DNA of 53,259 nucleotides. It comes from Solirubrobacterales bacterium (GTDB lineage Bacteria > Actinomycetota > Thermoleophilia > Solirubrobacterales > 70-9). The notes beneath the pieces are model-generated. The model was not told the DNA's origin and ran no database searches. It worked only from the letters and a program-made list of their open reading frames with translations. The DNA lies in contig JAGQUQ010000008.1 of assembly GCA_020438425.1 (NCBI GenBank), positions 1 to 53,259 of the forward strand, read 5' to 3'. This document shows, piece by piece, positions 3,097 through 50,559 of the stretch (the stretch's first letter is position 1; the number at the start of each line of letters is the position of its first letter). A program made the position numbers and the translations under genes.

Positions 3097-3196
3097 TCCT
3101 ACTTCAGCGCCGGGATTTATCGCAGGTCCACGACCTTTGTCTCCGCGCCGTGTTCCAAGGTTACTTGCCTACCCCTCAAGGAGTTCAGTTCCCAAA

Positions 3197-4105
3197 ATGA
3201 CGATCGCATCCGCACGCTCCATGTCCCGACCCGGCCGAATTTTCGGGGCGGTGATGGTGCTTGCCGCGATGCTCGTCAGCTTCGGCGGGTTGGCTCCGCA
3301 GGCCGATGCCGCAAAGCAGAAGCGGGTGGTAGCGCTCAGTCCCTTCGCCGCATCGGCGATGGTCAAGATGGGGGCCAGGCCGGTCGCGATCGGCGCCACG
3401 ATCGGTGGCGCGCGTCGGCTTGATCCGCGCCTCCGGAATGTGCGGAGCCTGCCCCTCTCGCATCCGAACGGCCCCAATCTCGAGGTGATGGCCAAGCTGA
3501 AGCCTGACCTGGTTTTCAGTTCCACTCGCTGGGCCAAGGGCACCAAGGCCCTCCAGAGCCTCGGCATCCGGGTGGTCTATGCCGACCCGACCGCCATCGG
3601 GCAGGTGAATCCGACGGTCACCAAGATCGGCAAGTGGCTGGGCAAGCAGAAGCAGGCCAACAACCTCAAGCGATCGATCCAGAACCGGATCCGCACGGCG
3701 ACCAAGGGCCTTCCGCCCTCCCGGCCAAAGGTTCTGGTCGTGCTCGGCATCGGCAACACCGCGATGGCTTTCCTCGGCAACAGCTGGGGCGGTCAGATCA
3801 TCCAGAAGGCCGGTGGCCGCCTGGTGACCGGTGGCGTCGGCAACCGGAGCGGCGGGTTCGTGAAGCTCTCCGACGAGGTGGTCGTTGCCCAGAACCCTGA
3901 CATCATCATCGTCGTGCCTCACGGCAACACCGATGACCTCAGTGAAGTCGCCGACTACATCAAGAACAACGAAGCCTGGAAGACGACCAATGCGATCCAG
4001 AACGACAAGGTCTACGTGTCGGTCGACAACGAACTGCTTCAGTCCGGGACCGATGTCGGCCAGATCATCGGCTCGGCCCGCAGCAAGTGGCTCAGAAACT
4101 GGTGA
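3197..4105 (+). CDS. Secreted substrate-binding protein of haem/siderophore/corrinoid ABC importer
   Basis: A class III periplasmic-type binding protein (TroA/BtuF/FepB fold): KRVVALSPFAASAMVKMGARPVAIG is the N-terminal lobe and LKPDLVFSSTRW the start of the hinge helix, followed by the second lobe (DIIIVVPHGNTDD). I prefer the ATG at 3197, preceded by AAGGAG about 13 nt upstream; in-frame starts at 3137 or 3224 are possible. The signal peptide ends QADAAKQKR and has no lipobox cysteine, which is unusual for a Gram-positive binding protein, normally a lipoprotein. It is the first gene of a three-gene importer. With HtaA proteins downstream and a HugZ-like protein divergent, haem is the favoured ligand; siderophore is the main alternative. 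Confidence 0.85.
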   Translation: MTIASARSMSRPGRIFGAVMVLAAMLVSFGGLAPQADAAKQKRVVALSPFAASAMVKMGARPVAIGATIGGARRLDPRLRNVRSLPLSHPNGPNLEVMAKLKPDLVFSSTRWAKGTKALQSLGIRVVYADPTAIGQVNPTVTKIGKWLGKQKQANNLKRSIQNRIRTATKGLPPSRPKVLVVLGIGNTAMAFLGNSWGGQIIQKAGGRLVTGGVGNRSGGFVKLSDEVVVAQNPDIIIVVPHGNTDDLSEVADYIKNNEAWKTTNAIQNDKVYVSVDNELLQSGTDVGQIIGSARSKWLRNW

Positions 4106-4173
4106 TCTCCGGGGCCTCCCCGGTCTGACCGCGGGACCGGGGGAGTGAGCTGACTCCTGTCAGGCCGATAGTC

Positions 4174-5139
4174 GTGGCCGTCTTCATGGCGGCGGCCCTG
4201 GTCCTGGCCTTCTGTGCCTCGCTCGCCTTCGGCGCGGTCCACATCCCGGTCAGCGACGTGATCGGGACGATTTTCGGTGACAAGGTCCCGGAAACCAGCC
4301 AGCAGATCATCGAGGTACTCCGCCTGCCCCGGACGATCGAGGCGATCCTGGTCGGTGCGGCGCTGGGAGTGGCCGGGGCCTGCCTTCAGGGGGCACTCAA
4401 CAACCCGCTCGCCTCGCCCGACGTGATCGGGGTGACCAGCGGGGCGGGCTTCGGAGCGATGCTGATCATCCTGCTCAACCCTGCCAGTGTCGAGCTTCTT
4501 CCCCTGAGCGCCCTGGCTTTCGGCCTGATTGCCGCCGGCATGGTCTTCCTGATCGGATTCACCGGCCGGGGCGGAGGCAACATCACCCGGGTGATCCTGG
4601 CCGGTATCGCGATCGCCGCCCTGTTCTCGGCCGCGACCGCGGCGCTGATGTCGGCCTACCCGGACCGGGTTCCGAACGCGGTCTTCTTTCTGGTCGGCGG
4701 GCTCACCTCGACCGGCTGGGAGAACCTCGAGACGGTCTGGCCCTACTTCGCCTTCGGGTTCGTGCTCGCGGTCTTCATGATCCGCCCGCTCGACAAGCTG
4801 ATGCTGGGCGATGACGTCGCCGCCTCGCTCGGCTCGAGGCCCAGGCTGATCCGGCTCCTCGCCGCTATCGCAGCCGCCGTGCTCGCCTCGGCCGCCGCCG
4901 CGATCGCCGGCCTGCTCGCCTTCCTCGGCCTGGTCATCCCGCACCTGGTCCGGCTGCTCGGCGGCACCAACAACCACACCTTCGTGATCCCGGTTTCGGC
5001 CCTGGCCGGCGCCGCCCTCCTGACCGCCGCCGACACCCTGGCCCGGACCATCGCCGCCCCGGTCGAGATGCCGGTCGGCCCTTTCCTGGTGCTGCTCGGC
5101 GTGCCGCTCTTCCTCTGGCTGCTGCGGAAGGCCGTCTGA
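4174..5139 (+). CDS. FecCD/BtuC-family ABC transporter permease
   Basis: 321 residues, about nine to ten hydrophobic segments, typical of the FecCD family that forms the membrane channel of iron-siderophore, haem and B12 importers. Family signatures are LRLPRTIEAILVGAALGVAG, GACLQGALNNPLASPDVIGV and, near the C terminus, GLLAFLGLVIPHLVRLLGG, the EAA-like loop that docks to the ATPase. The start is the GTG at 4174; an in-frame CTG at 4150, close behind a GGGGAG motif, would extend the basic N terminus and cannot be excluded. Its stop overlaps the ATPase start in TGATG, so the two are translationally coupled. Confidence 0.93.
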   Translation: MAVFMAAALVLAFCASLAFGAVHIPVSDVIGTIFGDKVPETSQQIIEVLRLPRTIEAILVGAALGVAGACLQGALNNPLASPDVIGVTSGAGFGAMLIILLNPASVELLPLSALAFGLIAAGMVFLIGFTGRGGGNITRVILAGIAIAALFSAATAALMSAYPDRVPNAVFFLVGGLTSTGWENLETVWPYFAFGFVLAVFMIRPLDKLMLGDDVAASLGSRPRLIRLLAAIAAAVLASAAAAIAGLLAFLGLVIPHLVRLLGGTNNHTFVIPVSALAGAALLTAADTLARTIAAPVEMPVGPFLVLLGVPLFLWLLRKAV

Positions 5140-5957
5140 TGGCGATCGGCAGAAAGACGATCCGGATCGACGAGCGGGCCCCGTTGCTGCAGGCCTCCGG
5201 GGTTCAGGTGACGATCGGCAAGAAGCGGATTCTCGAGTCGGCGGATCTGACGCTCGAGCGGGGAGAACTGGTCGCGATCGTCGGACCCAACGGGGCCGGC
5301 AAATCGACCTTCGCCCGGGGATTCTGCGGGCTGCGCCGGCCGGATGGAGGGTCGGTCAGGTGGATGGGCGTCGACCTCTCCGAACTGCGGGGACGCCGGC
5401 TCGCCGACATGCGGGCCTACGTGCCGCAGCGGGCCCAGGTTCCAGCCGGGGTGACCGTTCAGGCTGCTGTCAACATCGGCCGGTCCACCCATCTGAAGCC
5501 GCTGCAGGGACTTTCCTCCGAGGACCGGGATGTGATCGCGGAATCGATCGCCCGGGCCCGCATGGAAGGTTTCGAGGACCGCGACCTCGGAACTCTCTCG
5601 GGAGGCGAGATGCAGCGGGTCCAGATCGCCATCGCCCTGGCCCAGGGATCGCCGGTGCTGGTCGCCGATGAACCGACTGCCCAGCTCGACCTCGGAGCGA
5701 CCGCCGCGATCTCGAAGATGCTCCGTGAACTGGTCTCCGAGGGGATGGGGGTGGTGCTGATCGTTCACGACCTCGCTCTTGCCGCGGCGATCGCCGACCG
5801 GGTCGTGGTCATGTCTCACGGAAGGACGATCGCAACCGGAACCCCTGAAGCCGTGTTATCGAGTCAGTTGATCAGCGAAGTGTGGGGCGTCGAGGCGGAA
5901 CTCGTTCACAAGGATGGCCGCTCAGCACTCCACGTGGAATGGCTCGACCACCATTAG
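5139..5957 (+). CDS. ABC transporter ATPase (iron/haem importer, FepC/HmuV type)
   Basis: 272 residues with one complete nucleotide-binding domain: Walker A GPNGAGKST, Q-loop in YVPQRAQVP, signature LSGGEMQRVQIA, Walker B VLVADEPTAQLD and the switch histidine in LIVHDLALA. It energises the FecCD permease encoded directly upstream, and the C-terminal extension (VWGVEAELVHKDG) is typical of FepC/HmuV-like subunits. Its stop codon lies inside the palindromic operator candidate at 5954-5967, so the control region of the next gene begins within this one. Confidence 0.94.
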   Translation: MAIGRKTIRIDERAPLLQASGVQVTIGKKRILESADLTLERGELVAIVGPNGAGKSTFARGFCGLRRPDGGSVRWMGVDLSELRGRRLADMRAYVPQRAQVPAGVTVQAAVNIGRSTHLKPLQGLSSEDRDVIAESIARARMEGFEDRDLGTLSGGEMQRVQIAIALAQGSPVLVADEPTAQLDLGATAAISKMLRELVSEGMGVVLIVHDLALAAAIADRVVVMSHGRTIATGTPEAVLSSQLISEVWGVEAELVHKDGRSALHVEWLDHH

Positions 5958-40215: not shown

Positions 40216-41607
40216 GTGGACCGTGGACTAACCAGGCGGGAGCTGGGAAGGATTGCCCTGGGAGGGGCTGCCCTGGCCGGGCTCGGAAGCGCAGGGGTGC
40301 TGGCCGGTTGCGGCTCCGGAGGGGCTGGCCCGGACGAATCGGCAAAGGCGGTGCTCGATCGGTTGCCGAAGACGGGAGTACCGAAGCCGGTCGACTTCAT
40401 CCGGACCAACTGGTCGAAGGATCCGCTTGCCTACTGCTCTTACTCGTACCTGCCTCCGAACCCGCTCGGATCGGGAATCAGGCGGCTGCTGGCCGAACCG
40501 GCGGGACGTGTCGCTTTCGCCGGAGAGGCGACCGGAGACATTCCGGCTACCGTTCACGGGGCCGCCCAGTCCGGGAGGGATGCGGGCCTCTTTGCCGCGG
40601 ACGAACTTCGGTCAGGCTCCCGGGTCGCAATCGTCGGGGCCGGGGCTGCCGGCCTGGCCTGCGCCGGGGCGTTGCTTGAGAACGGCATGGAACCGTTCAT
40701 TCTCGAGGCTTCGGACCGGGTTGGAGGCCGAGTCAGAAGCGGAGAATTGACCGGATCCCCGGTTGAACTGGGAGCGTCCTGGATCCACGGCGTCGATGGC
40801 AACCCGCTGACCGAACTCGCGGGCGAGGCGGGAATCGACCTGCATCCCTTTGCCTACGAGCTCGACTTTCCGGTCCCGGGCCAGGGTGCACTTGGCAGGG
40901 CAGGGGAGAGGCGGTTCAGACGCGCGATCAATTCCTTTGAGCCGTACGCCTCTGGGGCGAATCAGCAGACGGTCGACTGGCTGCTGCCCTGGCAATGGGG
41001 GCCGGGACTGGAGTGGGCAGTCCAGACCGAGGTCCAGCAGGAGTACGGCGGGGACCCCGGCCAGGTCGCAGCCCTCGCCACCTGGGAGGGGGAATGGTTC
41101 CCCGGTGGTGACGCCCTGCTCGACGGAGCCTACGTCGACGTGATCAGCGGACTCTCCGGAGACGCCGAGATTCGCTTCGGCGCGAAGGTCCGGCGGATCG
41201 ACCAGGACTCGAACTCGGTCCGGCTCGTTTGGGACGGGGGAGAAGCTGAAGCGGACGCCGTGGTCGTCACGGTTCCGATCGGGGTGCTCAAGGCCGGAGT
41301 GATCGAGTTCAGGCCGGCGCTTCCGGCGCGGACGCTGGCGGCCATCGAGGGGCTGGGAGCCGGGCTTCTGGACAAGCTGTGGCTCGCCTTCGAGGAGCCC
41401 TTCTGGGACGAGGACGCGGAAGGATTCTCCTGGATCAACCCCCGTCTCCCGGGTCGCTGGGGCAGCTGGGTGAACGCGGTGCCGGTTACCGGCAAGCCGT
41501 TCCTGATGACGCTCTCCGGCGGATCGGACGCTCGCCGGCTTTCCGGTTGGAGCGACCTGGACCTCATCGCTGACGCGATGGGCGCGCTGGACGCGATGTT
41601 CGGCTAG
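40216..41607 (+). CDS. Tat-exported lipoprotein flavin amine oxidase, circularly permuted
   Basis: 463 residues. A twin-arginine signal (TRRELGRIAL) ends in a lipobox (VLAGC, Cys 32). Residues about 55-130 (FIRTNWSKDPLAYCSYSYLP, FAGEATGDIPATVHGAAQSG) are the segment that normally ends flavin amine oxidases, where GEAT and TVHGA contact FAD. Only then does the N-terminal Rossmann motif appear (VAIVGAGAAGLACA, 137-150; FILEASDRVGGR, 161-172; GASWIHG). The protein ends at DAMGALDAMFG, exactly where the usual enzymes run into RTxWxxDP. The whole fold thus appears present in permuted order. Such enzymes oxidise amines or amino acids using FAD. Downstream stop interlocks with the convergent gene in CTAG. 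Confidence 0.85.
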   Translation: MDRGLTRRELGRIALGGAALAGLGSAGVLAGCGSGGAGPDESAKAVLDRLPKTGVPKPVDFIRTNWSKDPLAYCSYSYLPPNPLGSGIRRLLAEPAGRVAFAGEATGDIPATVHGAAQSGRDAGLFAADELRSGSRVAIVGAGAAGLACAGALLENGMEPFILEASDRVGGRVRSGELTGSPVELGASWIHGVDGNPLTELAGEAGIDLHPFAYELDFPVPGQGALGRAGERRFRRAINSFEPYASGANQQTVDWLLPWQWGPGLEWAVQTEVQQEYGGDPGQVAALATWEGEWFPGGDALLDGAYVDVISGLSGDAEIRFGAKVRRIDQDSNSVRLVWDGGEAEADAVVVTVPIGVLKAGVIEFRPALPARTLAAIEGLGAGLLDKLWLAFEEPFWDEDAEGFSWINPRLPGRWGSWVNAVPVTGKPFLMTLSGGSDARRLSGWSDLDLIADAMGALDAMFG

Positions 41608-43217
41608 GAAGGATCCGATTGGCCGGCCGGGCCAGGGCGGATCCTGAAAGTGACCATGCGGAACGCGGAGATTGGAGAAACGGTCTCGGGATTGGTCTTG
41701 GCCGCGAACGAGATTCTCACCTTGACCTGGCGCGATTTGCCACTCCGCAGGATTGACTTTCGCAGCCTGCGATTCGCCTTGACGACTATCGAGACGGTGC
41801 CTGCCTTCTTGAACTTCCTGACGGTCCGGGACAGGAGGTCGGGCTTCTTTGCGTCATCGACAACCAGTTGTCCGGCGGCGGGGATGGTGACCTTGATCTT
41901 CGCCGTGCCATTGGATGAAGGGGTGACCTTGCGCACTTTGAAGACCTTGCCCTTCGGCGGCTCGGGCTGGCTCGGAACCCTGATTGCGGTCGGGTCGGAA
42001 TCGGAGTTGTTCGCGGTCGCGCCGAAATGCTCGCCGCCGCCAGAAACCGTTGCGACGTTGACCACGCTGTTCGGTGGTTTGTCTGCGGCGACCACTTTCA
42101 CGGTCACGTCCGGGTAGTAGGCCCCGGACTGGAGCGGGTCGGAGCGGGTGCATGAGACCGTCGCCAGGTCACAACTCCAGCCGTCACCGGAGATGGCGCT
42201 CGCGGTGAGGCCGGTCGGCAGCTGGTCGGTGACGGTCACCGGTCCCGAGGTGGAGAGGTTTCCGGTGTTGGTGACCCTGAGCGTGTAGTCACCGGCCCGC
42301 CCGGCAAGCAGGTCGCCATCGTGACTCTTGTCGATTTCAAGGTCCGGTCCCAGAACCGTGATCGAGGTGGAACCGCCCGCAACCTGGGGCCAGGGCCGGT
42401 CGTCGGCGCTGCTGGTGGCGACGATCGATGGCTGGCTGCTGTAGGTACCGGGCACGACGAAGGTCCTCGAGCAGTTGAAGGTCCAGGTTTCGCCCGGCGA
42501 GAGAACAGGCTTTTCGGCCGGGGGCACGGAGTCGCCGGACTGGTACTCGACGGGACCGCAGTTCCCGTCCGAGATCGCATCAAGGAGGCCGCCCGGGCCG
42601 GCCGGAACAAGCTGAGGTGCAGGGAGTCCCGCCGTCGGGATCGGGCTGGTATTGGTCAGTTCATAGGTGAAATCCACCTTCAGCGGCGGCGGCCCCGAGG
42701 TCACGCTCGGAGTCACCGAAAGTGTCGCCTGGGGGCGGGTCAGGGTGATCTTGGCGTCAGGACCTTCACCGGAGATCCTGCTGTCGCCGTCCCGATCGTG
42801 AACGGTCGCGCTCCAGTAGATCTCCAGAGGCGCTTCGAAGTCGTCTTCGCCGAGCGCTACGACGTAGGGGTTGTGGTTGACGGCCTTGACCGAGGTGCCG
42901 GCAGTCAGACTGACGTTGCTGATCAGGACAAAGTCCCCTTCCGGGTCTCCGCTCGAACCCGCCAGCCGTACCTTGACCATGATCTCGCTCAGGTTGCATG
43001 CGGAAGAACCCTGGTTCGTAATGACCGCCGCAAGGACTATCTCGTCGCCTTGCCGGACCGGCGAATCGAGCAGATCAAGGGTCTCATCGGCGAACCGGAC
43101 AGACGGATTCGAACCGGTACAGCCTTCGGGGCTCTGGTCCGCGCTTGCGGCAGGGGCGAAAACCAGCGCTGTCAAGAGCGCTGCGGCCACTGCCAGACAA
43201 CGTTTGATCTCCCTCAT
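41604..43217 (-). CDS. Secreted DUF11/CARDB-type beta-repeat protein
   Basis: 537 residues with signal peptide ending PAASADQSPEG. Several Ig-like beta domains follow: about 40-165 (DEIVLAAVITNQGSSACNLS), about 165-290 (PPPLKVDFTYELTNTSPIP), and a clear DUF11 domain at about 295-410 (LEIDKSHDGDLLAGRAGDYT, VTDQLPTGLTASAISGDGWSC). The C-terminal 110 residues are a basic beta domain (KIKVTIPAAGQLVVDDAKK). No enzyme motif or sorting signal is visible; a surface structural role is likely. Confidence 0.75.
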   Translation of the reverse strand: MREIKRCLAVAAALLTALVFAPAASADQSPEGCTGSNPSVRFADETLDLLDSPVRQGDEIVLAAVITNQGSSACNLSEIMVKVRLAGSSGDPEGDFVLISNVSLTAGTSVKAVNHNPYVVALGEDDFEAPLEIYWSATVHDRDGDSRISGEGPDAKITLTRPQATLSVTPSVTSGPPPLKVDFTYELTNTSPIPTAGLPAPQLVPAGPGGLLDAISDGNCGPVEYQSGDSVPPAEKPVLSPGETWTFNCSRTFVVPGTYSSQPSIVATSSADDRPWPQVAGGSTSITVLGPDLEIDKSHDGDLLAGRAGDYTLRVTNTGNLSTSGPVTVTDQLPTGLTASAISGDGWSCDLATVSCTRSDPLQSGAYYPDVTVKVVAADKPPNSVVNVATVSGGGEHFGATANNSDSDPTAIRVPSQPEPPKGKVFKVRKVTPSSNGTAKIKVTIPAAGQLVVDDAKKPDLLSRTVRKFKKAGTVSIVVKANRRLRKSILRSGKSRQVKVRISFAAKTNPETVSPISAFRMVTFRIRPGPAGQSDPS

Positions 43218-43279
43218 CGAACCCCTTGCCTTGAACTAAAGAGTAAGCCACCGGCGCGACGGCCGCAACCGTCGGCGGT

Positions 43280-44005
43280 TCAGGCCTCGTTCTCGGCGTG
43301 AATCGGTTCGCCCTCTTCGTCGATCGGGTTCTCGAAAGGTTCGGGCATCTGATGTGAATCCGCTTCCCGCTTGGCCTTGCGGATCTCCAACACGACCGGG
43401 ATGACGGAGGCGGCAACCACGCCCAGAAGAATGAACTCGATGTACTTCTCGACGAAGGCGATCTGGCCGAGGAAGTAGCCCAGGGTGGTGACGCCGGCGC
43501 CCCAGAGGATGCCGCCGACGATGTCGTAGGTGAGGAAGGTCCGGTAGTGCATGTGCGAGGTGCCGGCCATGACCGGAACGAAAGCCCGGACGATCGGAAC
43601 GAAGCGGGCCAGGATGATCGCCCGCGGGCCGTGCTTCTCGAAGAAGGCTGCGGTCTGATCGACGTACTCGCGCTTGAACAAACGACTATCCGGACGGTTG
43701 AAGAGCGGTGGTCCGAACTTTCGCCCGATCCAGTAGCCGGTCTGGTCACCGGCGATCGCGGCGATCGGAATCAGGATGCAGAGCACCCAGAGGTCGGGAA
43801 GGATGTCCGTCGTCGCGGAAAGCAGGCCGGCGGTGAAGAGCAACGAGTCGCCGGGCAGGAAGAAGCCGACCATCATTCCCGACTCCATGAAGACGATGAC
43901 CATCAGGCCGATCACCGAGAACTTCTCGATCAGGCTTTCCGGGTCAAGCCAGCTGGGGCCGAGGGCAAGCGGCATGTTGTGAAGTGCGGCGACGAAGAAG
44001 TCCAT
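43280..44005 (-). CDS. DedA-family membrane protein
   Basis: About 241 residues from the ATG at 44005; ribosome site is poor, and frames open to 44119 give an implausible basic N terminus. DedA/SNARE-associated motifs are FFLPGDSLLFTAGLLS, GDQTGYWIGRKFGPPL, FFEKHGPRAIILARFVPIVRAFVPVMAG and a GGILWGAGVTTLGYFLG helix, with about four to six membrane segments. DedA proteins include undecaprenyl-phosphate or phospholipid flippases; the Glu/Asp and two Arg motifs they need are present. The C-terminal tail is acidic (FENPIDEEGEPIHAENEA). Confidence 0.88.
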   Translation of the reverse strand: MDFFVAALHNMPLALGPSWLDPESLIEKFSVIGLMVIVFMESGMMVGFFLPGDSLLFTAGLLSATTDILPDLWVLCILIPIAAIAGDQTGYWIGRKFGPPLFNRPDSRLFKREYVDQTAAFFEKHGPRAIILARFVPIVRAFVPVMAGTSHMHYRTFLTYDIVGGILWGAGVTTLGYFLGQIAFVEKYIEFILLGVVAASVIPVVLEIRKAKREADSHQMPEPFENPIDEEGEPIHAENEA

Positions 44006-44094
44006 GAGGGAGGGTCCGCGACGGCGCGGAATCCGGCATTTTGACAGGTCACGCCACTTCGGGACCCCGCAGCCTCGTTGCGACGGGTCCTTTA

Positions 44095-44290
44095 TGATCG
44101 TTCGCGAAGTCGGTCGCACCCCTTTGCGGGGTCAGGGAATCCGGTCCAACTCCGGAACTGACGCGCAGCGGTAGGGACGTCCTTGAAGGCACATGGCCAC
44201 TGGACCAAAGGTCTGGGAAGGCTGCCTCCTCGAAAACGTCCAAGTCCGAAGACCTGCCGGCTTTGCGCCATGTGGCGCACCGAAATAGCG
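44095..44290 (+). ncRNA. Cobalamin riboswitch
   Basis: The core elements occur in order: AGGGAATCCGGT at 44134-44145, CCGGAACTGACGCGCAGCGG at 44152-44171, GCCACTGG at about 44195-44202, GGGAAGGC at 44215-44222, and the B12 box AAGTCCGAAGACCTGCC at 44242-44258. A hairpin (TGCGCC/GGCGCA, 44264-44279) follows. Its CCATGT (44268-44273) is complementary to ACATGG at 44191-44196, the loop expected to form the L5-L13 kissing contact. The first gene's ribosome site lies about 30 nt beyond, so translational control is most likely. Ends are approximate. The 320-bp gap before 44326 holds little else. Confidence 0.93.
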
Positions 44291-44325
44291 GTCTCGCGTA
44301 AGGCCGCCGGACAAAGAAGGAACGC

Positions 44326-45051
44326 ATGACCAATCGAATCACCAAACCCGCTATCGGGCTGCTGCTCGGACTGGCGCTGCTGCTCGGCTTCGTCTCGCAG
44401 CCGGCCATGGCCGCGAAGAAAGTACCGGTCAACCTGCGGGTTGTCACCTACAAGGGACAGATCGTCTTCGACGGGACCGTGAACACCGGTACCGCGAAGA
44501 TCAAGCCGAACGCCGACTGCCTCGGCGGTGCCGCCGGCCCGGCCAGGACCGTCGTCGGTCCGACCGCGCTGGGTCTGCTCTACCAGGCATCACTTCAGTA
44601 CAAGGCGCTCCGCCCTCTCGAGCTCTCCGATGGAGACTTTGGGTTCGGCATCTGCGGTATCGCGGGCGTCTCTGCCAGGGACAAAGAGTGGTGGGTCCTC
44701 CGCCAGAACTACAAGGACACGATGACCGGCGCCGAAACCACGAAGGTGAAGCGCGGCGACAAGATCCTTCTCTACCTCTCGAAGAGCTATGAGGACACGA
44801 CTCCTGACAGCCTCGCCCTGAACGCCCCCGGCAAGGTGCGCAAGGGCGCGAAGGTCAAGGTCCGTGTCTTCAAGTACACCGGCGCCGGCAAGCGTTCGGT
44901 CGTCGAAGGAGCGAAGGTCTCCGGCGCCAAGGGCGCCCTCACCGACGCTCAGGGTTACACGACCCTGACCATCACCGGCAAGACGAGGCTGGTCGCCCGC
45001 CAGGGCAGCCTGATCCCGTCGAACCGGGTCCAGGTCTCGATCAAGAAGTAA
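44326..45051 (+). CDS. Secreted DUF4430 protein (transcobalamin beta-domain-like)
   Basis: 241 residues, ATG with AAGAAGG upstream. Signal peptide ends QPAMAAKKVP. Residues about 30-155 fit DUF4430 (TALGLLYQASLQYKA, then DGDFGFGICGIAGVSARDKE, WWVLRQNY and VKRGDKILLYLS), the fold of the C-terminal half of animal transcobalamin and intrinsic factor. The C-terminal 75 residues are an Ig-like domain (GKVRKGAKVKVRVFKYTGAG). It has no lipobox or membrane anchor, so it may be free or bound to a partner. Being the first gene after a B12 riboswitch, it most likely binds cobalamin outside the cell. Direct B12 binding is inferred. Confidence 0.8.
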   Translation: MTNRITKPAIGLLLGLALLLGFVSQPAMAAKKVPVNLRVVTYKGQIVFDGTVNTGTAKIKPNADCLGGAAGPARTVVGPTALGLLYQASLQYKALRPLELSDGDFGFGICGIAGVSARDKEWWVLRQNYKDTMTGAETTKVKRGDKILLYLSKSYEDTTPDSLALNAPGKVRKGAKVKVRVFKYTGAGKRSVVEGAKVSGAKGALTDAQGYTTLTITGKTRLVARQGSLIPSNRVQVSIKK

Positions 45052-45061
45052 TCGGGCTGGA

Positions 45062-46027
45062 ATGAATCTCTCAGCCGCATGCCGGTGGTTCCAGGGCCTT
45101 TCGGCCCGGGCCACCGGCATGGCGGCTGTGGTTCTCGCGAGCTCGATTCTGGCCGGATGCGGCCTCGGGCCGGGCGAGGAAACAGGTGACGCGAAACTCT
45201 GGGTTACCCGCGACTATGGCGCGGAAATCCTGGTTGACCGGGAACTGCCGGTCAACGAATCAAGCAACGCGATGCGGGTGCTCGACGAAAGCGCCGAGCT
45301 CGAAACCGCTTACGGCGGCGAGTTCGTTCAGGCGGTCGACGGGCTGTCCGGAGACACGGAAAGCGGTCGCAGCTTCGACTGGTTCTTCTCGGTCAACGGG
45401 ATCGTGGCCGAGCGGGGTTCGGCCCAGTTCCCAGTCGAAGGAGGAGACACCGTCTGGTGGGACTTCCGCGACTGGACCGACGCGATGGAGGTCGGCGGAG
45501 TGGTCGGCGCCTACCCGGCACCGTTCTCGACCGGGTATGACGACCGGAACTGGGGGGTCGAGATCGACTGCCGCGGTGAAAGCTCCGCCTGCCGCATGGT
45601 TGAGAACCAGCTGGCGGGAGATGGCGTGACCCTCAGGGACACGGGGGAGAACATGCGGATCGTGGTCGGCACCCTTCCCGAACTGCTCGACATTCCCGAG
45701 ATGAAGCGCCTGCACAAAGGCCCGGACGCGAGCGGAGTGTTCGCCACCTTCGGCCCGGGCGGAATCCTGCCTGGAGAAGGAAAGCCGAACCCGACCCTGG
45801 CAATCGAAGGACTCGGGATCGACGGCAGTGTGGCCCGGGAGTTCGGTCCCGAGGCCGGACTGGTGGCCGCTATGCGCCGGGCCGAAGATCCGCCGGTCTG
45901 GTTGATCACCGGGGGTACCGACGAGGCGGTCCAGATGGCCGCCGCAGCATTGAACCCCGCCGATCTTGAACGGAGATACGCAGCGGTGGTCAGCGACGGA
46001 ATGGTGAGCTCGCTGCCCTTACCCTGA
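45062..46027 (+). CDS. DUF4430 lipoprotein with extra C-terminal domain
   Basis: 321 residues. The lipobox SILAGC is at about residue 33. Residues about 45-150 are a DUF4430 domain (AMRVLDESAELETAYGGEFV, SFDWFFSVNGIVAERGSAQF, GDTVWWDFRDW). Residues about 170-320 form a separate alpha/beta-looking domain I do not recognise (DRNWGVEIDCRGESSACRMV, VWLITGGTDEAVQMAAAAL), with a possible disulphide. It starts 10 nt after the previous stop and 10 nt before ecfT, within one operon. The likely role is a membrane-tethered B12-binding or hand-over protein. Confidence 0.8.
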   Translation: MNLSAACRWFQGLSARATGMAAVVLASSILAGCGLGPGEETGDAKLWVTRDYGAEILVDRELPVNESSNAMRVLDESAELETAYGGEFVQAVDGLSGDTESGRSFDWFFSVNGIVAERGSAQFPVEGGDTVWWDFRDWTDAMEVGGVVGAYPAPFSTGYDDRNWGVEIDCRGESSACRMVENQLAGDGVTLRDTGENMRIVVGTLPELLDIPEMKRLHKGPDASGVFATFGPGGILPGEGKPNPTLAIEGLGIDGSVAREFGPEAGLVAAMRRAEDPPVWLITGGTDEAVQMAAAALNPADLERRYAAVVSDGMVSSLPLP

Positions 46028-46037
46028 GTGGTCGACG

Positions 46038-46916
46038 ATGAAGAAGCTTTCCCCGATCGCCTTTGTACCTCGCCGGGAGACCGTGCAGACGGCCTCGCTG
46101 GCTCCGGTCGCCCTGTATCTGGGTGCCTACCTGCTGGTCTGCTTCTTCTCCTCCGACCCGATGGTGCTGATCGCCGCCACGGCCGGCGCCGCGATCGCCG
46201 GTTACGGATGCGGAGCGAAACGGGCGGTCAACTTCTCGCTCAAGCTCGGTGGCTTTCTGGCCCTGACCATGATCATCGTCAACGCGCTGGTGACCAGCCG
46301 GGGAGCGACCGTGCTGGCCCGGCTCGGTGACTGGCCGTTGCTCGGCCGGGTTGACGTGACCGCCGAGGCGATCGCCGCTGGTGGCGTGATCGGCCTGCGG
46401 GCCATGGGCACGATGGTCGTGATCGGGGTCTGGTCGGCCTGCGTTGATCCCGACCGGATCCTCCAGGCGGTACACGGAGTGGCCAGGCGTTCGGCCCTGA
46501 CCGCCACCCTGATCTCCAGGCTGGTGCCGCTGGCCGCGACCGACTACGCCCGGATCGGCGAGGCGGCATCGCTGCGCGGCCCGGGGGCCAGTCCGGTCGG
46601 ACGCGGGGCGATGGCCCACAGATTGCTGGCCGGCTCGCTCGACCGCGCGGTGGACGTGGCCGCGACGCTCGAACTTCGCGGCTACGGATCGAGCGGCGCC
46701 TCGGCCCGGTTCAGGCCGGTGCCCTCGCGCTTCGATCGCCGCTTCTGGCTGGCCGGTGCGGGGTTGATGGCAGCCGCGCTGGCTGAACTGCTCGCGGGTT
46801 CGGGGCGGTTTGAGACCTATCCCGAAATTGCCTACGGGATCGGGCTCGAAGGCCCGCTGGTCGCCGTCGCGTTTCTGGTCGGCGGGTTCGTCACCTGGCG
46901 AAGGGGAGGGCGATGA
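46038..46916 (+). CDS. ecfT: ECF transporter T component
   Basis: 292 residues, CbiQ/EcfT family, with about five to six membrane helices. The two coupling-helix motifs characteristic of EcfT are visible: EAASLRGPG and TLELRGYGS (A/E-x-R-G type), which contact the ATPase grooves. It overlaps the ATPase gene by 4 nt (ATGA). Together with the double ATPase and the S-domain protein it forms a complete energy-coupling-factor importer; the substrate is taken as cobalamin from the riboswitch. Confidence 0.9.
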   Translation: MKKLSPIAFVPRRETVQTASLAPVALYLGAYLLVCFFSSDPMVLIAATAGAAIAGYGCGAKRAVNFSLKLGGFLALTMIIVNALVTSRGATVLARLGDWPLLGRVDVTAEAIAAGGVIGLRAMGTMVVIGVWSACVDPDRILQAVHGVARRSALTATLISRLVPLAATDYARIGEAASLRGPGASPVGRGAMAHRLLAGSLDRAVDVAATLELRGYGSSGASARFRPVPSRFDRRFWLAGAGLMAAALAELLAGSGRFETYPEIAYGIGLEGPLVAVAFLVGGFVTWRRGGR

Positions 46917-48550
46917 ATCCCGTCGCAGCCCCGCGCGCCTCCGGGCTCGCCCTGGAGATGGAGAACCTCGGTTACCGGTACGCGGGAGCGGAGGTTCCGG
47001 CCCTGGAAGGAATCGACCTGACGATCGAGCCCGGCGAGTTCATCGTGCTGGCTGGTGGCTCCGGGTCCGGCAAGACTTCGCTGCTCAGGGCCGGATGCGG
47101 CCTGATTCCACACTTCCACGGCGGGGAGATCTCCGGATCGGCGAGGGTTGCCGGAAGGTCGATTACCGACTGCGGCCCGGGGGAGCTGGCCGACGTGGTC
47201 GGTTATGTCGCGCAGGACCCGGAGACCCAGATCGTCTCGACCACGGTCGCGGCAGAACTCGACCTGCCGCTTCGCTTCCGAGGTGACCACCCGGCCGAGA
47301 GGGCCCGCGCGGTCGAGGAAGTAGCGCTCGCGCTCGGGATTCCCCACCTCCTTCCGCGAACCGTGACCACGCTTTCGGGCGGGGAACTCCAGCGGGTCGC
47401 CCTCGCGGTGGCCCTGGTCACCCGGCCTCCGCTGATCCTGCTCGACGAACCCACCTCCCAGCTCGACCCGGTCTCCGGGGACGAGCTGATCTGGCTGCTC
47501 CGCCGCCTCAATGAGGAGTGGGGGGTCGCCGTCCTGCTCGCCGAGCACCGGCTGGAACGGTGCCTGGCGGCGGCCGACCGGGTCGTTGCCATGGACGCCG
47601 GCCGGATCGGCTTTGACGGCTCGCCGCGCGACTTCCTCGGCTGGGCGATCGAGTCGAGACCGGAACTGGCGACGCCCTCCGCGCTGATGTTCGCGGGGGC
47701 AGGGATCGAGCCACTGCCGGTTGGCGTGCGTGACGCGAGAAGAATTCTCCGGGATCGAGATGTTCATTCCGGGGGTCCTTTGGAGTCTCAGGGACCACAA
47801 GTGTCACCCGGAAGTGAATCGACACCGGTTCTGGAATCGAGTCGGCTCTGGGTCGAGCTCGACCCCGGGGAAGGACCCGTTGACGTACTGCGGGGCATCG
47901 ATCTCGAGATTCGGGCCGGCGAGAAGGTCGCCCTGATGGGCCGCAACGGAGCCGGAAAGTCGACCCTGCTCCGCGCCGCGGCCGGGCTGGTCGACCCGGT
48001 TTCGGGCAGGATCGAGACTCCGGGCGGAATCGCTCTGCTCACCCAGAATCCGGGCGACTTTCTGGTTCGAGAAAGAGTCGGGGATGAACTCTCCGGGGCG
48101 GAAGGGGAGGCAGCGCTCAGAGCGGTCGGGCTGGACGTGTCAGCGGACCGCGACCCCCGCGACCTGTCGGGAGGCGAGCGCCAGCGACTCGCCCTGGCGA
48201 TCGCGCTCGCGGGCCGCATGGAAGGCGAGGAACTGCCCGGGCTGATCGGCCTGGACGAGCCGACCCGGGGCATGGACCGGGGGCTCAAGTCACACCTGAC
48301 CGAACTGGCCGACCGGCTCGCCCTCCGTAGCGCGGCGGTACTGATCTCGACCCATGACGTCGAGTTCGCGGTGACCTTCGCCGACCGGGTCATCCTGCTC
48401 GGAGACGGCGAAGTGATTGCCGATGCGGACACGGCGACCGTGCTTAGCGGCGGCTGGTACTTCGCTTCCGAAGCGGCCCGGGTCTTTGACCGGCCCGGCC
48501 TTGTTTCAATCGAACAGGGAATCGCCTTGCTGCGGGAGGTGGAAAGGTGA
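46913..48550 (+). CDS. ecfA: Fused double ECF ATPase (EcfA-EcfA')
   Basis: 545 residues with two complete ABC ATPase domains. First: Walker A GGSGSGKT (48-55), Q-loop VAQDPETQ, signature LSGGE (154-158), Walker B LILLDEP (174-180), switch His in LLAEHRLE. Second: Walker A GRNGAGKS (343-350), LTQNPGDFL, LSGGE (418-422), Walker B LIGLDEP (444-450), His 481. A linker of about 60 residues (DRDVHSGGPLESQG) joins them. Separate EcfA and EcfA' subunits are more common; here a single polypeptide supplies both. Stop overlaps the next gene's GTG. Confidence 0.93.
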   Translation: MNPVAAPRASGLALEMENLGYRYAGAEVPALEGIDLTIEPGEFIVLAGGSGSGKTSLLRAGCGLIPHFHGGEISGSARVAGRSITDCGPGELADVVGYVAQDPETQIVSTTVAAELDLPLRFRGDHPAERARAVEEVALALGIPHLLPRTVTTLSGGELQRVALAVALVTRPPLILLDEPTSQLDPVSGDELIWLLRRLNEEWGVAVLLAEHRLERCLAAADRVVAMDAGRIGFDGSPRDFLGWAIESRPELATPSALMFAGAGIEPLPVGVRDARRILRDRDVHSGGPLESQGPQVSPGSESTPVLESSRLWVELDPGEGPVDVLRGIDLEIRAGEKVALMGRNGAGKSTLLRAAAGLVDPVSGRIETPGGIALLTQNPGDFLVRERVGDELSGAEGEAALRAVGLDVSADRDPRDLSGGERQRLALAIALAGRMEGEELPGLIGLDEPTRGMDRGLKSHLTELADRLALRSAAVLISTHDVEFAVTFADRVILLGDGEVIADADTATVLSGGWYFASEAARVFDRPGLVSIEQGIALLREVER

Positions 48551-50559
48551 GCTGGCAGCTGATCAGCGTGATCGTGCTGCTGGTCGCGATCGGGGTCGGA
48601 ATGCTCTGGTACGAGCGATCGCGACCGCCTTCGCAGATCGTCGCCCTGGTTGCGGTCCTGGCCGCGCTCGCGGTCGCCGGGAGGCTGGTGCTGGCGCCGA
48701 TCCCCAACGTGGTCGCCACCACCGACATCGTGATCATCGCCGGGTTCGTGCTCGGGCCCGCGCCCGGCTTCGCGGTCGGGGCTCTGGGTGGCCTCGTTTC
48801 CAACTTCTGGCTGGGGCAGGGGGTGTGGACTCCCTGGCAGATGGTCGCCTGGGGAATGTGCGGGGTGGGCGGCGCGGCCCTGTGGCAGATGACCCGTGGC
48901 AGGGTCAATCGCTGGGTGCTGGCGGTCTTCTGCGGGCTGGCCGGTGTTCTCTTCGGTGCCTGGATGAATCTTGAGACGATGGTCAGTTTCGGGGGGGAAA
49001 TCTCGCTGGAGCGGTACCTTGCACTTGAGGTAAGAGCAATTCCATTCGATGTCGCACACATGACCGGCAACATCATCTTCGCCCTGGCCGCCGGCCCGGC
49101 CATGATTGCTGCCCTGACCCGGTTTCGGGAAAGGTTCCAGTGGCAGCAGGTCGAGACCGGTGATTCGGAGCGGGGCGACGCTGCCGGTGGCGGGCGACCC
49201 GGGGCTCGGCCCCGCACCGCGACCGGGCTGACGATGATCCTGGCCGGGATGCTGCTCTTCACCTTTGCCGGAGGCAGCGCCCCGCCGAAAGCCGACGCCG
49301 CCTACACCGCGGAGGCCAAGGAGGCGGCCGCCTGGCTTGAGACGCAACAGAACTCGGATGGCGGATTCTCCTCGATGCCGGGAGGCACCTCATCGGTGAA
49401 CATCACCGCCCGGGCGATGTTCGCGCTCGCCGCGGCCGGGATCAATCCGCTCGACGTGAAGACCAATGCGACGCCGTACGGGTACCTGGTCAACAACCGG
49501 GACGACATCACCGAAGCCAGCGACATCGCCCTGACCATCCTCGCGATGAAGACGGTCGGGCAGGACCCGAAGGACTTCAAGGGCCGCAACCTGATCAAGG
49601 CGCTGCGGGCGCGCCGGGGCAACGGCTCGTTCGGCAATGACGTCAACGTGACCGCCTTCGCCGCCCTCGCCTTTCGATCGGCGGCCGCGACAAAGGACGC
49701 GCAGTACTCGATCAAGTGGCTTTACAAGGCCCAGAACGACAACGGTGGCTGGGGCATCGCCAAAGACGCCGACAGCGGAGCCGACTCGACCGGTGCCGCG
49801 ATGATGGCGATCACCGGCGAGAAGTCGGCCAACCGGGCGATCGGCTTCCTCGACGGAATCCAGAAGAAATCAGGCGGGTTCGGAAGCAGCGGCAACGTCA
49901 ACGCCCAGTCGACCGGCCTCGTCATGCAGGGTCTGGTCGCGCAAGAGCGAGGCGTCAACTACCTGAAGAAGAACGGCAATTCCCCCGCCGACTACCTGCT
50001 TTCGCTGCAGCAGGAGGACGGCAGCATCCTCTACGCCAAGGGCAACGACGCGACGAGGGTCTGGGTGACGGCCGACGGAACCACTGCCCTGGCCGGAAAG
50101 CCCTTGCCGATCCAGGCTCCGCCTCGGGAGAAGGACGACAACTCGAGCAACAACGGCACGGGTGGTGCCTCGCCCGGTGACGGAACCGGAGGCACCTCGA
50201 CCGGGGGGACCACGCCGACCTACACGCCACCGGCCGGATCACTGGCCACCCCCTCGAACTCGACGCCTTCGACCTCCGGAACCGCAAACAGTGGCGGGAA
50301 CAACGGCGGCAACAACGGCGGAAACCAGGGTGGAGGAAACGCGAACAACGCACCGGAAGATACCGTCGAACCGACGACTGAACTGCCGCCGGATGATGCT
50401 TCCGTTTCGCTGGTGCCTGAAGCGCCGAGCGCCGAGGTGCTGGCCGCTTCCGAGGCCGGGCCCCAGCCGTCGCCGGTGATTGCGATCCTGATCGCCCTGG
50501 GAGTCAGCGGAGCGCTCTGCGGCGGCACGATCCTGCTCGCGCGGCGGTTCCGTTGGTAG
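48547..50559 (+). CDS. ECF S-like domain fused to extracellular alpha/alpha-barrel (intrinsic-factor-like)
   Basis: 670 residues. Residues 1-195 have about six membrane helices and look like an ECF substrate-specific component (GRLVLAPIPNVVATTDIVII, GPAPGFAVGALGGLVSNF). After a helix at about 228-243, residues about 255-522 form a prenyltransferase/squalene-cyclase-type repeat domain: AAWLETQQNSDGGFSS (261-276), LRARRGNGSFGND, IKWLYKAQNDNGGWGI, IGFLDGIQKKSGGFGSSG and ADYLLSLQQEDGS. This is the alpha6/alpha6 fold of the N-terminal half of intrinsic factor. A Gly/Asn/Ser/Thr linker (530-640) precedes a final membrane helix and RRFRW tail. The barrel would sit outside the cell above the S domain. 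Confidence 0.82.
   Translation: MSWQLISVIVLLVAIGVGMLWYERSRPPSQIVALVAVLAALAVAGRLVLAPIPNVVATTDIVIIAGFVLGPAPGFAVGALGGLVSNFWLGQGVWTPWQMVAWGMCGVGGAALWQMTRGRVNRWVLAVFCGLAGVLFGAWMNLETMVSFGGEISLERYLALEVRAIPFDVAHMTGNIIFALAAGPAMIAALTRFRERFQWQQVETGDSERGDAAGGGRPGARPRTATGLTMILAGMLLFTFAGGSAPPKADAAYTAEAKEAAAWLETQQNSDGGFSSMPGGTSSVNITARAMFALAAAGINPLDVKTNATPYGYLVNNRDDITEASDIALTILAMKTVGQDPKDFKGRNLIKALRARRGNGSFGNDVNVTAFAALAFRSAAATKDAQYSIKWLYKAQNDNGGWGIAKDADSGADSTGAAMMAITGEKSANRAIGFLDGIQKKSGGFGSSGNVNAQSTGLVMQGLVAQERGVNYLKKNGNSPADYLLSLQQEDGSILYAKGNDATRVWVTADGTTALAGKPLPIQAPPREKDDNSSNNGTGGASPGDGTGGTSTGGTTPTYTPPAGSLATPSNSTPSTSGTANSGGNNGGNNGGNQGGGNANNAPEDTVEPTTELPPDDASVSLVPEAPSAEVLAASEAGPQPSPVIAILIALGVSGALCGGTILLARRFRW

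Follow-up and report, generated by a model that had tools for sequence, protein, structure and literature searches.

The best-studied system related to the locus described here is the energy-coupling factor (ECF) transporter ECF-CbrT of Lactobacillus delbrueckii (PDB 6FNP), which transports both cobalamin and cobinamide (PMC5997447). It is built from an S-component, the transmembrane coupling subunit EcfT and two ATPase domains, and L. delbrueckii CbrT uses one module in common with other S-components. ATP-driven corrinoid import is also the task of BtuFCD, a transporter of an unrelated type that uses the binding protein BtuF. In animals, vitamin B12 is bound by intrinsic factor, transcobalamin and haptocorrin, each of which joins an alpha domain and then a beta domain in one chain; when the alpha and beta halves of human transcobalamin are made separately, they co-elute and assemble only with B12 present (PMC5599065). 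Little is known of how Gram-positive-type bacteria capture B12 for their ECF importers. We analysed a window of 53,259 nucleotides, the whole of contig JAGQUQ010000008.1 in the metagenome bin (2.57 Mb, 82.8% complete) of a Solirubrobacterales bacterium (GCA_020438425.1), a soil-type organism. One operon of this window probably encodes a B12 importer of the CbrT type that has its own capture module on the outer surface, composed of separated counterparts of both halves of intrinsic factor and transcobalamin (Table 1).

The operon comprises five open reading frames on the same strand, 3' of a cobalamin riboswitch and separated by gaps of 11, 11, -3 and -3 bases, which encode in this order protein A, protein B, EcfT, a fused double ATPase and a protein termed here S-barrel. 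The preliminary description of this DNA had placed a cobalamin riboswitch at the head of two exported DUF4430 proteins, ecfT, a fused ATPase and an S-like protein carrying a barrel, and the RF00174 and Pfam matches bear it out. Walker A (GGSGSGKT, GRNGAGKS) and signature motifs (LSGGELQ, LSGGERQ) are found in both halves of the ATPase; EcfT and two motif-intact ATPase domains, which a CbrT-type ECF transporter requires, are thus in place. The S-domain has CbrT (6fnp_A) as its best solved relative and falls in the cobalamin family, not in a family for some other substrate, an outcome that the same description had named as one that would refute it. In common with ECF-CbrT, the window operon has a homologous S-component together with EcfT and two ATPase domains, and its regulation is linked to B12. 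It differs in having a dedicated EcfT and ATPase, in the fusion of the two ATPases, in the outer barrel fused to the S-component, and in the additional DUF4430 proteins.

Table 1. Elements of the B12-riboswitch operon, in window coordinates. The gathering cut-off of the RF00174 covariance model is 31.5 bits and the Pfam cut-off of DUF4430 (PF14478) is 23.8 bits.
Feature	Position	Strand	Evidence
Cobalamin riboswitch (RF00174)	44094..44275	+	101.6 bits, E 2.4e-24, full length
Protein A: exported, Sec-type signal peptide, DUF4430/transcobalamin-type beta domain, C-terminal immunoglobulin (Ig)-like stretch	44326..45051	+	DUF4430 25.8 bits
Protein B: lipoprotein, DUF4430 beta domain (residues 38-139), second domain (146-314)	45062..46027	+	DUF4430 41.1 bits
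EcfT transmembrane coupling subunit (CbiQ family)	46038..46916	+	PF02361 36 bits
Fused double ECF ATPase (EcfA-EcfA')	46913..48550	+	two ABC_tran domains; motifs
S-barrel protein (S-component and alpha/alpha barrel in one chain)	48547..50559	+	ECF S-component match; prenyltransferase/cyclase-type alpha/alpha toroid
S-component domain, residues 1-205, CbrT-like	48547..49161	+	6fnp_A E 2.2e-15 (residues 28-201); profile E 9.5e-24
Linker transmembrane/signal-anchor segment, residues 225-243	49219..49275	+	hydropathy 1.62; Arg-rich 190-226 just before
Alpha/alpha barrel domain, residues ~253-517, polar rim Asp413, Asn452, Gln/Asp510	49303..50098	+	predicted local distance difference test (pLDDT) >90 in barrel of model
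C-terminal membrane anchor, residues 644-662, then ARRFRW	50476..50532	+	hydropathy 2.24

The riboswitch scores far above the gathering cut-off and is a member of RF00174; no other cobalamin riboswitch was found in the bin. Among the fetched S-positive genomes of the class, all 38 have a cobalamin riboswitch on the same strand 1.5-5.3 kb upstream of S, and wherever a genome has a single such riboswitch it is the one of the S locus (28 of 28). Riboswitches are likewise present at the corresponding loci of three isolates: Conexibacter arvalis DSM 23288, Conexibacter sp. S30A1, whose genome is complete, and Solirubrobacter pratensis. B12-binding domains occur in 31 of 31 family genomes, this bin encodes proteins of the MetH (methionine synthase) and methylmalonyl-CoA mutase types, and FecCD permeases are present in part of the family only. 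By sequence, then, the operon product is very likely a cobalamin importer of the CbrT ECF type. It is somewhat unlikely that another corrinoid or a precursor (cobinamide, other cobamides) is taken up instead of or besides cobalamin, a reading that fits whether or not the capture module works as a clamp: ECF-CbrT carries cobinamide too (PMC5997447), and the riboswitch reports a shortage of coenzyme B12 and not the molecule transported, whereas CbiC, the corrin-synthesis marker tested, had no match in the 31 family genomes, later-pathway genes being outside the search.

Proteins A and B both exceed the Pfam cut-off, and no further DUF4430 protein was found in the bin. Protein B has the lipobox LAGC, with Cys33 invariant in an alignment of 28 relatives, and its AlphaFold2 model reaches a pLDDT of 89. 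The top 14 fold-match rows of its beta domain, with Z values of 11.8-13.7 across 93-99 residues, all belong to the B12 carriers (beta domains of transcobalamin, haptocorrin and intrinsic factor); next comes the solved bacterial protein RUMGNA_00854 (Z 11.4). Protein B therefore has the beta domain of the carrier fold. Its second domain (window 45497-46000) is well predicted and resembles a domain of BcsB, a subunit of cellulose synthase (Z up to 10.4), as well as N-terminal domains of glycosidases. Elsewhere in the Actinomycetota (loci L111, L117, L118 and L121), exported proteins of 1200-1900 residues carry one to three DUF4430 domains together with repeats of Ig or propeller-like type. Three of these loci (L111, L118 and L121) have a smaller DUF4430 protein beside the large one, and in L118 and L121 the ECF genes start with this smaller protein, no barrel being detected.

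The predicted model of the S-barrel protein has a confident barrel that superimposes on the alpha domain of intrinsic factor (2pmv_A, 7-273) with a Z of 20.1 over 233 residues. From hydropathy and charge, namely the Arg-rich stretch, the hydrophobic segment ahead of the barrel, and the C-terminal segment with its final ARRFRW, the barrel is predicted to lie outside the membrane, tethered to the S-component. A sequence link to the animal proteins was obtained with hhalign and an alignment of four carriers, in which intrinsic factor was checked against PDB chains and the others were read from PDB alignments; controls were 60 column-shuffled decoys and crossed pairs. Barrel and carrier alpha domain scored 46.3 (E 7.1e-6, 226 columns; shuffle maximum 18.1), DUF4430 and carrier beta domain 35.1 (E 7.6e-6, 68 columns; shuffle maximum 23.0), the crossed pairs 14.6 and 13.7, and none of the 60 shuffles reached either true-pair score. 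In this alignment, the putative B12 contacts Asp153, Asp204 and Gln252 of intrinsic factor fall on Asp413, Asn452 and Asp510 of the window protein; a literature search yielded no contact residues for the carriers. Among 31 barrels the three columns read D/N (29/31), N/D (28/31) and Q/D/E (28/31), respectively; Asp413 is not diagnostic, since it also corresponds to an Asp of the cyclase motif. The fold matches of protein B and of the barrel, together with the profile comparison, agree with the earlier proposal that both intrinsic-factor folds are present on separate envelope proteins; the absence of structural similarity, which would have counted against it, was not what we found.

Several results weigh against so close a tie to the animal carriers. 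On the barrel fold, squalene-hopene and drimenyl cyclases outscore intrinsic factor (Z ~25 versus 20.1), so that the alpha/alpha barrel, although present, is by itself not specific to carriers. The barrel reaches 10.4 bits with PF01122, below the cut-off of 25, and intrinsic factor reaches 18.4 bits with the DUF4430 model, again under the cut-off. Sequence profiles of the barrel find cyclases, and the HMMER profiles A1, A2 and A3 run against PDB sequences did not return intrinsic factor (for A3, among the best 60 of 89 matches). With intrinsic factor as a single sequence, hhalign gave nothing significant against the barrel or DUF4430 profiles; the link is clear only with the four-carrier profile and its shuffled controls. 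The intrinsic-factor-type barrel of the preliminary description therefore stands as a fold, but in sequence and fold the domain is nearer to barrels of the squalene-cyclase type, and what connects it with intrinsic factor is its context, the profile comparison and the polar positions that align. Nor is the one-chain order of the carriers kept: the window has separate genes, and the sole fusion found runs from beta domain to barrel. As the Pfam cut-off and the one-chain order both fail, the system is a variant of the CbrT-type ECF importer and not a member of the animal carrier family. It shares both folds with the carriers, and polar rim positions (Asp/Asn) align at matching places; it differs in its far diverged sequences, in the distribution of the halves over different envelope proteins that are tethered to an importer driven by ATP, and in having no receptor-endocytosis route. 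A barrel protein of the same broad family is the SCO2321 family membrane protein of NCBIfam, against which the window protein scores 84.2 bits versus an equivalog cut-off of 300 bits and from which it differs by the S-component within the same chain; a Streptomyces-like locus (L122) has the order EcfT-ATPase-S-barrel-DUF4430.

The importer with a split intrinsic-factor-like module is widespread. The S-barrel query matches 107 of the 199 genomes of the class, and the cassette of DUF4430, EcfT, ATPases, S and barrel recurs with S and barrel fused within the order Solirubrobacterales and as separate genes in other families; the architecture is conserved across Solirubrobacterales/Thermoleophilia and, with variations, in other Actinomycetota. 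Because dozens of genomes have the identical gene order, the locus is neither a product of chance nor an assembly artefact. A-type proteins are present in 21 of 22 fetched loci with a fused S-barrel, the exception ending at a contig end. The occurrence of S and of DUF4430 agrees 15 to 0 and 0 to 12 (Fisher p 6e-8), counted over the class genomes listed in both surveys, which are related and so not independent. A contig labelled Bacillota bacterium (L202) has the same S-barrel gene, preceded by a strong cobalamin riboswitch (112 bits); this reflects either transfer or a mislabelled bin.

Variants of the operon tell the two DUF4430 proteins apart. In L095, L096 and L214 it is split into one unit of riboswitch, B, EcfT, ATPases and S, and another of riboswitch, A and barrel; six of the seven barrels tested that lie away from the S gene follow a cobalamin riboswitch, among them extra barrels of another genome. 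In that genome an A-type domain and a barrel occur in one chain of 658 residues (L210:7633-9609, +), scoring 99.7-109.3 bits for the A-type domain (with profiles built without the fusion) and 155 bits for the barrel; the beta part of this chain was detected by the A-type profile and not by PF14478. Given the split operons and the one-chain fusion, the likeliest partner of protein A is the barrel, and that of protein B the transporter; the two, which had been treated alike, are not equivalent. Loci L208-L211, of two larger genomes, hold further secreted barrel proteins behind cobalamin riboswitches and away from any ECF genes, some of them with an A-type protein next to them and one joined to an A-type domain in a single chain; one neighbour is a DUF2149 protein.

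In the mechanism that we propose, scarcity of B12 would let the riboswitch permit expression of the operon, which B12 would otherwise repress. The barrel that the S-component bears and protein A, exported and with its beta domain, would then close round extracellular B12 in the manner of the transcobalamin halves, the beta domain of the lipid-anchored protein B may help to hold B12 or pass it to the S-component, and the S-component would bring it into the cell through the toppling cycle of ECF transporters, with the double ATPase as the motor. Since the transcobalamin halves join only with B12, a split clamp is physically reasonable, and we infer, as the best account, that such a clamp closes on B12. 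It is quite unlikely that the importer works without one, the DUF4430 protein(s) binding B12 alone and the barrel serving as a structural tether or binding something else, for instance glycans of the cell wall or matrix. The beta domain of human transcobalamin was indeed crystallised alone with B12 bound (PMC5599065). Several related operons of Actinomycetota run DUF4430-EcfT-ATPase-S with no barrel detected beside them, which tells against the clamp in so far as importers of this type can do without the barrel. Alpha/alpha toroids have many functions, with glycosidases and epimerases among the fold matches of this one, and the likeness of the second domain of protein B to domains of BcsB and glycosidases points the same way. 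Against this, barrels remote from the S gene also stand behind cobalamin riboswitches, A and barrel form a riboswitch unit of their own and in one case a single chain, and most barrels have polar residues at rim positions that align with those of the carriers. A role for the barrel as terpene cyclase or prenyltransferase, in an operon for lipids, is very improbable and was rejected: squalene-hopene and drimenyl diphosphate cyclases are its closest sequence and fold matches, but the window protein has GADST in place of the DXDD motif of squalene-hopene-type cyclases, a motif that only 7 of 31 relatives carry. Its scores stay far below the NCBIfam cyclase cut-offs, and the barrel is predicted outside the membrane, in an operon that follows a B12 riboswitch and includes genes of a B12 transporter.

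The riboswitch, CbrT-type ECF import and DUF4430 are each already known. In the literature searched, from which subscription papers were largely absent, we found no bacterial importer with both carrier folds and no bacterial counterpart of intrinsic factor or transcobalamin; the complete architecture, in which the preliminary description saw the novelty, is not rare. If the clamp is real, it would be a bacterial, split and membrane-coupled counterpart of intrinsic factor and transcobalamin, and possibly their ancestor. The chances appear evenly balanced that bacteria evolved, or keep relatives of, the animal two-domain B12 clamp, with the barrel of an S-component and a secreted beta protein closing on B12 at the cell surface and handing it directly to an ATP-driven importer. 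With a complete bacterial system that has both folds, is headed by a B12 riboswitch and is coupled to an importer, one can test in what way so large a ligand reaches ECF S-components, and whether the animal B12 carriers descended from bacterial capture proteins or converged with them.

Elsewhere in the window, genes for an ABC importer of the FecBCD/BtuFCD type (binding protein, permease, ATPase) lie at 3137-5957, with no riboswitch at these genes; checked as a candidate second route for B12, it could not be assigned to the vitamin, because heme, siderophore and BtuFCD models match alike and all below cut-off. Upstream of the operon and divergent from it (41604-44119, -) are genes for a DedA/VTT-domain membrane protein and an exported DUF11 protein, the start of the DedA/VTT open reading frame overlapping the left end of the riboswitch by ~26 bases.

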